Of a DNA stretch of 42,710 bases, positions 39,127-41,352 are shown one piece after another. How positions within the stretch are numbered: position 1 is the first letter of the stretch; every line of letters starts with the position of its first letter. The DNA comes from Caryophanales bacterium (GTDB taxonomy: Bacteria > Bacillota_I > Bacilli_A > RF39 > UBA660): the NCBI GenBank assembly GCA_016290885.1, contig JAEEVN010000009.1:1-42710 (forward strand), written 5' to 3'. The position numbers and the translations under genes are program-made. The notes below the pieces were generated by a model. The model was given only the letters and a program-made list of their open reading frames with translations. It ran no database searches and was not told where the DNA came from.

Positions 39127-39813
39127 ATGAAATTATCAAAAAGATTACAAGCAATAGCTGATTTTGTATCTGAAACTGATAGAGTAATAGATATAGGTTG
39201 TGATCATGCTAATTTAGACATATATTTATGTGAATTATATAAAGATATCAAAATAATCGCATCAGATATACATGAAGGAGCACTAGAACAAGCTAGAACA
39301 AATATTGAAAAACATAATTTAACAAAAAGAATAGAAACTAGATTAGGAGATGGTTTAACAATAGTTAATCCATCAGAATTTGATACTATTATTATTAGTG
39401 GTATGGGATTTCATAATATTAAAAAAATATTATCAAATGCTCCTAAAATGATTAATTATCCTAAAATTATTATTCAAAGTAATACTGATGTAGTTAAATT
39501 AAGAACTTTTGTTACAAAACTAGGATATAAAATATCAAGAGAAGAATTAGTCTTAGATAATGAAATAATATATACAATTATTGAATTTACTAAAGGAGAA
39601 GAAAAATATAATTATTCTCAAAACTATTTTGGACCTAGAATATTAGAAAATAAAAATGAATTATTTTATGAATATTATTCTAAGAAATTATTAAAATATG
39701 AAAACTTATTACTTCAATTACCTGGTTATGAAATATTTAGTATTATGCATCATAAACATCTAATTAAAATAATTAGAAAAGAATTAACTAAAGTAAAAAA
39801 AGAAGATAAATAA
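39127..39813 (+). CDS. trmK: tRNA (adenine22-N1)-methyltransferase TrmK
   Basis: A 228-residue SAM-dependent enzyme that methylates A22 in tRNAs. KLSKRLQAIADFV, then VIDIGCDHANLDIYL (SAM motif I), IIASDIHEGALEQARTNI (motif II), TRLGDGL and DTIIISGMGFHNIKKIL match TrmK/YqfN; the usual second Gly of GMGG is Phe here. The C-terminal helical part ends in lysines. It begins one base after rpoD, the usual Firmicute position, and is followed by the glyQS promoter. Confidence 0.9.
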   Translation: MKLSKRLQAIADFVSETDRVIDIGCDHANLDIYLCELYKDIKIIASDIHEGALEQARTNIEKHNLTKRIETRLGDGLTIVNPSEFDTIIISGMGFHNIKKILSNAPKMINYPKIIIQSNTDVVKLRTFVTKLGYKISREELVLDNEIIYTIIEFTKGEEKYNYSQNYFGPRILENKNELFYEYYSKKLLKYENLLLQLPGYEIFSIMHHKHLIKIIRKELTKVKKEDK

Positions 39814-39842
39814 TTGATTTTAAAATAATAAAGATATATAAT
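39814..39842 (+). promoter_or_regulatory. Promoter of the glyQS T-box transcript
   Basis: TTGATT (39814-39819), a 17-nt spacer and TATAAT (39837-39842). Transcription should start near 39850, at the first base of the T-box. Confidence 0.75.
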
Positions 39843-39849
39843 TAATATA

Positions 39850-39981
39850 GAAAAGCAATGATGAAGGTTGGAAACTTCTAGCTATATATATAAGAGATGA
39901 TTCTTTTGAATAAGTAGGGTGGAACCGCGGAAATATTCGTCCCTATAATCAAAGGGGTCTTTTTTTGTTTAAGGAGGAAAT
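39850..39981 (+). promoter_or_regulatory. Compact glycine T-box riboswitch
   Basis: The T-box sequence AGGGTGGAACCGCGG (39916-39930) is unmistakable. Stem I is tiny: AGC/GCT (39854-39856, 39881-39883), then GAAG/CTTC (39863-39866, 39875-39878) capped by loop GTTGGAAA with the Gly codon GGA at 39870-39872. A stem III-like AAGAG/TTCTT hairpin follows. TAGGG (39915-39919) with CCCTA (39941-39945) makes the antiterminator, and CCCT with AGGG (39953-39956) makes the terminator before a T tract. Uncharged tRNA-Gly should permit glyQS transcription. Confidence 0.85.
39939..39967 (+). terminator. T-box-controlled terminator
   Basis: Stem GTCCCT/AGGGGT (with G-T pairs) and loop ATAATCAA, then T. The left arm is also the right arm of the antiterminator. 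Confidence 0.75.
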
Positions 39982-41352
39982 ATGGAAAAATTAACAATGG
40001 AAAAAATAGTTAATATTTGTAAACAATATGGATTTATATTTCAAGGATCTGAAATATATGATGGACTAGCTAATACATGGGATTATGGCCCATTAGGAAG
40101 TAGAATTAAGAATGCTATTAAAGATGCTTGGAGAAAAAGATTTATTCAAGAAAATGATAATTCTTATGAACTTGATGCATCTATATTAATGCATCCAAGA
40201 GTATGGGAAGCATCTGGTCATGTTGGTGGTTTCTCTGATCCATTAATGGATTGTAAAGAATGTAAAACTCGTCATAGAGCAGATAATCTTATTAATGATT
40301 TTACTGGTGATTCTAGAGGAGACAGTATGTCTCACGAAGAAATGGTAAAATTTATTAAAGATAATAATATTCCTTGCCCTAAATGTGGTAAATGTAATTT
40401 TACTGATATAAGAGAATTTAATCTTATGTTTGAAACTCATAGAGGTGTTATTAAAGATGATAAATCTATAGTATATTTAAGACCAGAAAATGCTCAAGGA
40501 GAATACGTTAATTTCTTAAATGTACAAAGAACTATGAGAGCTAAAATACCTTTTGGTATAGGTCAAATAGGTAAAGCGTTTAGAAATGAAATAACTCCAG
40601 GTAATTTTACTTTTAGAACTATTGAATTTGAACAAATGGAACATCAATTATTCTGTAAACCTGGTGAAGATATGCCTATATATGAGCATTATAAAGAATA
40701 TGCTAAAAAATTCTTCATGGATTTAGGATTACCTGAATCTAAATTAAGATATCATGATCATGAAAAATTAGTATTCTATGCTAAAGCAGCATGTGATATT
40801 GAATATGAATTCCCATTTGGTTTTGGAGAAATAAATGGTACTCATGATAGAACAGATTATGATTTATCTCAACATGAAAAATTCTCTGGTAAAGAACAAA
40901 AATATTTAGATCCAGAAACTAATGAAAAATATATCCCATATGTAGTAGAATCTACTGTAGGTCTTGATAGAACAGTACTTGCAGTATTATGTGAAGCTTA
41001 TGATGAAGAAACACTAGAAGATGGAACTACAAGAGAAGTAATGAGATTTAGCCCTTATTTAGCTCCATATAAAGTATCTATTCTTCCTCTTATTAAGAAG
41101 AATCATTCTGATAAAGCTAAAGAAGTATATAAAGAATTATCTAAATATTTTATGTGTACTTATGATGAATCAGGTAATATAGGTAAAAGATATAGAAGAA
41201 GTGATGTTATAGGTACACCATTTGCAATTACTATAGATGATGAAACAATTAATAATAATACTGTTACTTTAAGAGATAGAGATACTATGAAACAAATTAC
41301 TCTAAATCTTGATGAAGTTAAAGATTATGTGCTTAATAAGATTAATTTTTAA
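39982..41352 (+). CDS. glyQS: Glycyl-tRNA synthetase, dimeric class II type
   Basis: A 456-residue enzyme charging tRNA-Gly. YGFIFQGSEIYDGLANTWDYGPLG opens the class II core, with motif 1 near DASILMHPRVWEASGHV. A Cys-containing insertion (CKECKTRH, CPKCGKCNF) could bind zinc. Motif 2 is AFRNEITPGNFTFRTIEFEQMEHQ and motif 3 is VVESTVGLDRTVLAVL. The anticodon-binding domain begins near 360 (APYKVSILPL). This is the single-chain bacterial/eukaryote-like form, not the GlyQ plus GlyS pair. AAGGAGG precedes the ATG, and transcription is T-box controlled. Confidence 0.95.
   Translation: MEKLTMEKIVNICKQYGFIFQGSEIYDGLANTWDYGPLGSRIKNAIKDAWRKRFIQENDNSYELDASILMHPRVWEASGHVGGFSDPLMDCKECKTRHRADNLINDFTGDSRGDSMSHEEMVKFIKDNNIPCPKCGKCNFTDIREFNLMFETHRGVIKDDKSIVYLRPENAQGEYVNFLNVQRTMRAKIPFGIGQIGKAFRNEITPGNFTFRTIEFEQMEHQLFCKPGEDMPIYEHYKEYAKKFFMDLGLPESKLRYHDHEKLVFYAKAACDIEYEFPFGFGEINGTHDRTDYDLSQHEKFSGKEQKYLDPETNEKYIPYVVESTVGLDRTVLAVLCEAYDEETLEDGTTREVMRFSPYLAPYKVSILPLIKKNHSDKAKEVYKELSKYFMCTYDESGNIGKRYRRSDVIGTPFAITIDDETINNNTVTLRDRDTMKQITLNLDEVKDYVLNKINF

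Follow-up and report, generated by a model that had tools for sequence, protein, structure and literature searches.

The leader of about 110 bases that lies 5' of a glycyl-tRNA synthetase (GlyRS) gene in an uncultured gut bacterium is, with a probability of roughly 0.8, a novel and minimal kind of glycine T-box that attenuates transcription and would switch by capture of its Stem III. The window, i.e., the whole stretch of 42,710 nucleotides that was analyzed, is contig 30 of a MAG of 1.11 Mb that is 95% complete, and the parts of the leader as well as the two flanking genes are on its forward strand. The gene upstream is trmK (39127-39813; tRNA A22-N1 methyltransferase, PF04816, 152.8 bits), whose stop codon is directly 5' of the -35 box of the leader promoter. 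The gene downstream (39982-41352, ATG at 39982) follows a Shine-Dalgarno motif found in the sequence (AAGGAGG, 39971-39977). It had been labelled glyQS in the original prediction. This is wrong, since it is glyS, which encodes the dimeric single-chain GlyRS (456 aa; NF003211, TIGR00389). The gap between the two genes holds a leader region of ~130 nt that includes the promoter, a 30-nt hairpin, a linker, Stem III, the antiterminator, and the terminator. Within it, we place the T-box leader at 39850-39967.

The ultrashort Stem I (30 nt, 39854-39883) comprises an outer helix between AGC (39854-39856) and GCT (39881-39883), a kink-turn with AATGAT (39857-39862) on one side and TA (39879-39880) on the other, and the apical hairpin GAAG-GTTGGAAA-CTTC (39863-39878), in which a 4-bp helix (GAAG 39863-39866, CTTC 39875-39878) closes a loop at 39867-39874. 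The glycine specifier GGA (39870-39872) is in this loop, where the flanking T39869 and A39873 add to its complementarity with the tRNA-Gly(UCC) anticodon loop. It had been predicted in the loop of the 4-bp stem, where it is indeed present, and relatives keep a glycine codon. The stem is, in correction of the original prediction, larger than this hairpin, as it further includes the 3-bp outer helix and the kink-turn. A single-stranded linker (39884-39898), which leads to the G preceding Stem III, replaces Stem II. The RRRxG motif (AGATG, 39895-39899), Stem III (ATTC 39900-39903, GAAT 39908-39911), and the dinucleotide AA together span 39895-39913. The antiterminator (39914-39946) has a helix A1 (39914-39919 with 39941-39946), the T-box bulge TGGAACC (39920-39926; UGGAACC in the RNA), and a helix A2 (39927-39930 with 39937-39940) with the conserved G-U pair at its base. 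The 5' arm of the terminator (GATTCTTTTGA, 39899-39909) overlaps Stem III and pairs with the 3' arm (TCAAAGGGGTC, 39949-39959), which is followed by a tract of seven T (39960-39966), the two spanning 39949-39966. The canonical T-box core that had been noticed is present, from 39917 on, and is followed by the terminator and the start codon.

Relatives of the leader were collected from the regions upstream of GlyRS genes in 108 genomes of the family and 80 named relatives. After removal of repeats there were 120 distinct T-boxes, of which 115 compact ones were kept. We set aside three leaders with a long Stem I (L109, L119, and L128) and two that are unlike the others (L161 and L228). In L161, a leader linked to GlyRS, both the specifier (TGAA) and the T-box core are altered, and the element is apparently decayed. 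Many of the sequences are related, and the counts below represent non-independent events. The original prediction called for a covariance-model check, and the model built from these relatives (R1) finds the leader and reveals covarying pairs: in an alignment of 101 matches (A2), which was fitted to the model, both partners have changed in 18 of the 20 base pairs, with 239 double-changed cells vs 65.5 after shuffling. At E <= 1e-8, R1 matches 201 of the 288 genomes of the source's order, and the matched genomes of this sample all belong to one family. Across the class, 395 sampled genomes gave 40 matches at E <= 1e-7, 39 of them inside the family. The only match outside (G418) is by eye a long canonical T-box and was rejected as a compact leader, as were, for the same reason, the phylum-level matches above 44 bits that we examined, in a search that yielded genomes of the same class only. 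GlyRS is in the same short locus in 59 of the 62 best-hit loci (L232-L293, counted by hand), and for two of the remaining three the coordinates place the leader 1.4-1.5 kb upstream of GlyRS. Such conservation, as judged from sequence comparison, excludes a chance origin of the leader. Hence, the ultrashort Stem I glycine T-box with an apical GGA is borne out by comparative evidence across the whole family. Its description as a notable minimal glycine T-box holds for the build, but not as an isolated curiosity, since 83 of the 102 genera carry the leader.

An ordinary glycine T-box with a long Stem I (class II), starting further upstream inside trmK and with an overlooked 5' part, is an alternative to the minimal form, and four relatives as well as outgroups of the same class do have a long Stem I. 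We consider it extremely unlikely, for reasons that concern the end of the outer helix and the position of the promoter. In our MAFFT alignment (A1) the 3' strand of Stem I is placed wrongly, so the tests of this stem were redone by direct parsing, which covers 113 of the 115 leaders (L095 and L122, with GGT and one extra base, were unparsed). The outer helix has exactly 3 bp. Its outermost pair, which is T-A in 55 leaders, A-T in 43, G-C in 10, and C-G in 1, is formed in 109 of 113, vs a mean of 51.5 and a maximum of 69 after shuffling. The next two pairs are formed in each of the 113, and a pair beyond the outermost one in only 5. The outer helix is also 100% paired in alignment A2, which was fitted to the model and whose pairing counts thus lean towards it, direct parsing being the independent test of Stem I. 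The length of the stem is 28-32 nt in 112 of 113 relatives.

The promoter of the window (39814-39842) has a -35 box TTGATT (39814-39819), a spacer of 17 nt, and a -10 box TATAAT (39837-39842), with an inferred start near 39850, i.e., just 5' of Stem I. Its score of 10/12 is by itself not above chance, the AT-rich stretch having 6 promoter-like sites vs 8.1 expected. Independent support comes from the relatives, for which we scanned 108 of the 115 compact leaders (7 had less than 75 nt upstream). A promoter of at least 9/12 is present in 95 of them, and in 90 of these 95 the -10 box ends 9-23 nt 5' of Stem I. This kept position agrees with the predicted start near 39850 and supports a start close to Stem I. 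An outer helix that stops after 3 bp, without an extending pair, and a promoter this close to the stem together argue that a hidden long Stem I is excluded for the group. They also contradict a start inside trmK, which the original prediction had named as the case that would overturn it, and on these two grounds the long Stem I was rejected. In the window, the coding sequence of trmK itself reaches 39813.

The upper part of Stem I is also conserved. The apical helix has 3-5 bp, and its own arms pair over 3.85 bp vs 3.17 when swapped (highest swap 3.33), a modest covariation. Between the outer and the apical helix, the relatives have the kink-turn of T-box Stem I (Rfam consensus gCgaUGA...gGAGc), with GATGA-type bases in one strand and, in most of them, (A)GA opposite. 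The apical loop reads TGG[A/C]A: the T and the GG are invariant (113/113), and the base after the codon is A in 111. The third base of the specifier is A in 97 and C in 16 of the 113, and two further leaders have GGT. All 115 compact leaders thus keep a GGN specifier, always a glycine codon, which matches the GlyRS gene that follows, as in other T-boxes; the T at position -1 and the A or G at +1 are also conserved. The parser of the specifier maximizes pairing, so only its specifier counts were used, with the arm-swap test as control; L018 and L220 were unparsed in it. When isolated, the Stem I of the window is predicted to fold otherwise and to hide GGA (unpaired probability of 0.09; -6.1 vs -4.3 kcal/mol for the conserved fold), under energy rules that contain no kink-turn terms. 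The median unpaired probability of the specifier over the 115 relatives is 0.92.

According to computed energies, UUGGAA in the loop has six possible pairs with the tRNA-Gly(UCC) anticodon loop (-5.7 kcal/mol) and fewer with that of tRNA-Gly(GCC) (-3.2 kcal/mol). At the other contact, the bulge is UGGA in 110 of 115 relatives and its A matches U73, a base that, among the 27 tRNAs tallied in the genome, is found only in the two tRNA-Gly and in tRNA-Cys. In L073 (1501-1588), ARAGORN reports a tRNA with anticodon CUA and without an encoded CCA (labelled tRNA-Pyl), possibly a miscall or else a tRNA of unusual or suppressor-like type. One could consider the leader as a decayed T-box that lost its tRNA-binding arm and retained a plain terminator acting as a constitutive attenuator. 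This would account for the missing elbow motif and Stem II, and L161 does look decayed, but decay would not preserve the specifier, the bulge, the G-U pair, and the kink-turn, and these are conserved and covarying over 83 genera, together with the -1 T and the +1 A/G. It is thus a very unlikely explanation.

The core and the terminator of the leader inform on how the minimal T-box may switch. The RRRxG-Stem III-AA motif of the window was retrieved by regular expression in 86 of the 115 relatives, and the bulge is UGGA-AC[CA] or UGGG-AC[CA] in all 115. In alignment A2, Stem III is 99.5% paired and the antiterminator helices A1 and A2 98.5-99.3%. The terminator and its T-tract are conserved, which is not what is expected from the translational regulation of class III. 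We analyzed the terminator in 114 relatives, L105 being dropped as it has no T-run, and kept a few misplaced T-runs (e.g., L017, L021, L111, L186) in the means. The duplex between the terminator arm and Stem III has a mean energy of -11.1 kcal/mol, vs -7.1 when arms are swapped between species and -4.0 when the arm is shuffled, and the own arm beats the swapped mean in 99 of the 114. The same arm with the antiterminator strand gives -4.06 vs -3.9 kcal/mol when shuffled. As a result, Stem III is the preferred partner in 112 of 114 relatives, with covariation, a feature that the original prediction had missed. In the window, the fold of the terminator state has -29.7 kcal/mol and that of the Stem III-forced state -21.3 kcal/mol. 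A few relatives (e.g., L024, L078, L129) lack the Stem III hairpin and keep the long-range helix.

A point against the capture model is that the terminator and antiterminator helices do not compete for the same sequence, so that the switch requires Stem III as its contested part. The alternative is a working minimal T-box with a conventional switch, in which the terminator competes with the 3' strand of the antiterminator and the pairing with Stem III is incidental. The window does contain a weak hairpin of this type (GTCCCT/AGGGGT, 5-6 bp, -5.3 kcal/mol), and two long T-boxes of the same genome and most controls from other families are conventional. However, the 114 relatives favour the covarying Stem III duplex over an arm-antiterminator pairing close to its shuffled value, and on this basis the conventional terminator was rejected as the main one in spite of the window hairpin. 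We regard this alternative as unlikely.

The Stem III-pairing terminator occurs elsewhere in the genome. Six of its 11 long T-boxes favour Stem III by script, and a seventh (L004), which the script read on the wrong strand, pairs likewise when judged by eye. In these elements (L003-L008 and L010) the 3' arm of the terminator complements the 3' strand of Stem III and its flank, not the antiterminator strand; the unusual terminator thus extends beyond the glycine leader. It is found in 3 of 16 long T-boxes of other families and in 2 of 10 Clostridia leaders, some of them through early T-runs, which blur some of these control rows. Being frequent among the long T-boxes of its own genome and present in few of those of other families and Clostridia, the rewired terminator is a trait of the source's family. 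In L009, 5' of a GNAT-like gene, and L011, 5' of a cytidylate kinase gene, the terminator arm GTACTATCC complements by eye the T-box bulge GGATGGTAC, a third terminator arrangement within one genome. Several T-boxes of this genome (L005-L010) precede, by eye, small membrane, HD, CYTH, GNAT, or HAD-like genes, and not directly a synthetase.

The minimal leader lacks the two elements that usually reinforce tRNA binding. The linker has 13-17 nt in 101 of 104 relatives, which is too short for a Stem II with its S-turn and IIA/B pseudoknot, such as class III has; a linker without Stem II is what is found in class II. The elbow-binding double T-loop is absent, lost with the distal arm, and a Stem I of 28-32 nt is not the long one with the AGAGA/UGxRA motif of class II. 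In the available text of PMC10482949, the elbow motif, Stem II, or the two together strengthen tRNA binding by T-boxes, and in that of PMC7583486 the elbow motif is generally required by transcriptional T-boxes; both hold that binding is reinforced by one of these elements. Since both are absent here, the affinity of the minimal leader for tRNA could be too low. A protein gripping the kink-turn (L7Ae family, like YbxF) might replace the missing contacts. The kink-turn is the best kept part of the leader, and 39854-39883 has weak, sub-threshold Rfam matches to archaeal C/D-box RNAs. Yet a search for L7Ae-family proteins that was positive in 7 of 14 control genomes, including B. subtilis, gave none in this genome, an absence that is not certain because the genome is a 95% complete MAG. 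Such a protein is, in our view, quite unlikely.

We favour an RNA-only switch by Stem III capture. Sequence and covariation establish the anatomy, the glycine specifier, the promoter position, and the duplex between terminator arm and Stem III; we infer that the leader binds tRNA, that it responds to charging, and that the tRNA blocks the capture of Stem III. Transcription would start just 5' of the 30-nt Stem I. The latter would correspond to the kink-turn base of a T-box Stem I, capped by the specifier loop in the form of an apical loop; this would allow GGA and the flanking bases to form a kissing contact with the tRNA-Gly anticodon loop, through the 3 codon pairs and up to 6 pairs. The kink-turn and the linker of ~15 nt would let the 3' end of the tRNA reach the bulge, where UGGA pairs with UCCA. 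When tRNA-Gly is uncharged, its free end would dock, the antiterminator and Stem III would stack as one discriminator unit that holds Stem III, and RNA polymerase would read through to glyS. With charged tRNA, or without any, the 3' arm of the terminator would capture the Stem III segment into an 11-bp helix around the antiterminator hairpin, followed by the T-tract and termination.

As a long Stem I persists in some sister genera, the distal arm was probably lost on the way to the minimal form. A long Stem I with the same kink-turn, specifier, and core occurs in four relatives of the family, and the GlyRS leaders of other families of the class are also long. A rapidly built GlyRS tree of 76 rows, for which the thorough search was unfinished, has long and ultrashort forms interspersed, with 6 changes between them. 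We therefore rejected a clean single origin of the ultrashort form; cassette exchange or repeated loss are the alternatives.

The Rfam T-box model (RF00230) matches the leader at 39828-39947 with 37 bits (E 4.6e-7), far below its gathering cut-off of 93 bits, and none of the 8 relatives tested pass this cut-off. The remaining 11 T-boxes in this genome are ordinary ones and score 72.7-125.9 bits. The cut-off mirrors the long Stem I, and a lower score is compatible with a divergent member. Surveys based on it would therefore have overlooked the class. In titles and abstract openings of the open-licence literature, we found no earlier description of such a minimal form (further sources: PMC7778990, PMC2494555, PMC6197855). 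The available text of PMC10482949 distinguishes four classes of T-boxes: class I has a long Stem I and a Stem II, class II a long Stem I without Stem II (glycine), class III a short Stem I with apical specifier and a Stem II, mostly in translational elements, and class IV is intermediate. The present leader has a short Stem I with an apical specifier, no Stem II, and a transcriptional terminator, a combination that fits none of these. We lean towards a fifth class, derived from class II by loss of the distal arm, possibly repeatedly (also in Clostridia), and defined by two short RNA-RNA contacts only and a Stem III-capturing terminator. In such a class the kiss between apical loop and anticodon and the pairing of bulge and NCCA would hold the tRNA without elbow docking or Stem II, and the terminator would capture Stem III, part of the discriminator that reads the tRNA, instead of melting the antiterminator. 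A conserved transcriptional form without elbow motif or Stem II would set the minimum for RNA-only reading of tRNA, the terminator that would capture Stem III points to a second mode of coupling tRNA charging to termination, and a leader of ~110 nt suits kinetic and structural work.

Among the systems that we compared, three ultrashort glycine T-boxes from MAGs of Clostridia (L227, L229, L231) share the dimeric GlyRS gene, the kink-turn, the apical GGA or GGC, and the UGGA bulge. They differ in having, by eye, an extra small hairpin or pseudoknot-like insert after Stem I and conventional terminators. The loop of their hairpin could pair downstream (e.g., CUGUCU with GACA), possibly as a stand-alone IIA/B-like pseudoknot. 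Two other Clostridia GlyRS leaders (L218, L230) have a very short hairpin with GGA or GGC and no clear kink-turn. As described in the available text of PMC10482949 and PMC7583486, class III T-boxes (ileS of N. farcinica and M. tuberculosis) have, like our leader, a short Stem I without elbow motif, an apical specifier, and a kink-turn, but the examples are isoleucine-specific, the class is mostly translational, and it needs the Stem II with S-turn and IIA/B pseudoknot that our leader lacks. Class II (B. subtilis glyQS), as far as the available text of PMC10482949 describes it, is also glycine-specific, without Stem II, with a single-stranded linker, a kink-turn base, and transcription termination. 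It differs by its long Stem I with elbow-binding motif and internal specifier loop, whereas the present leader has a Stem I of 28-32 nt with an apical specifier, precedes a gene for a dimeric GlyRS, and has a terminator that pairs with Stem III.
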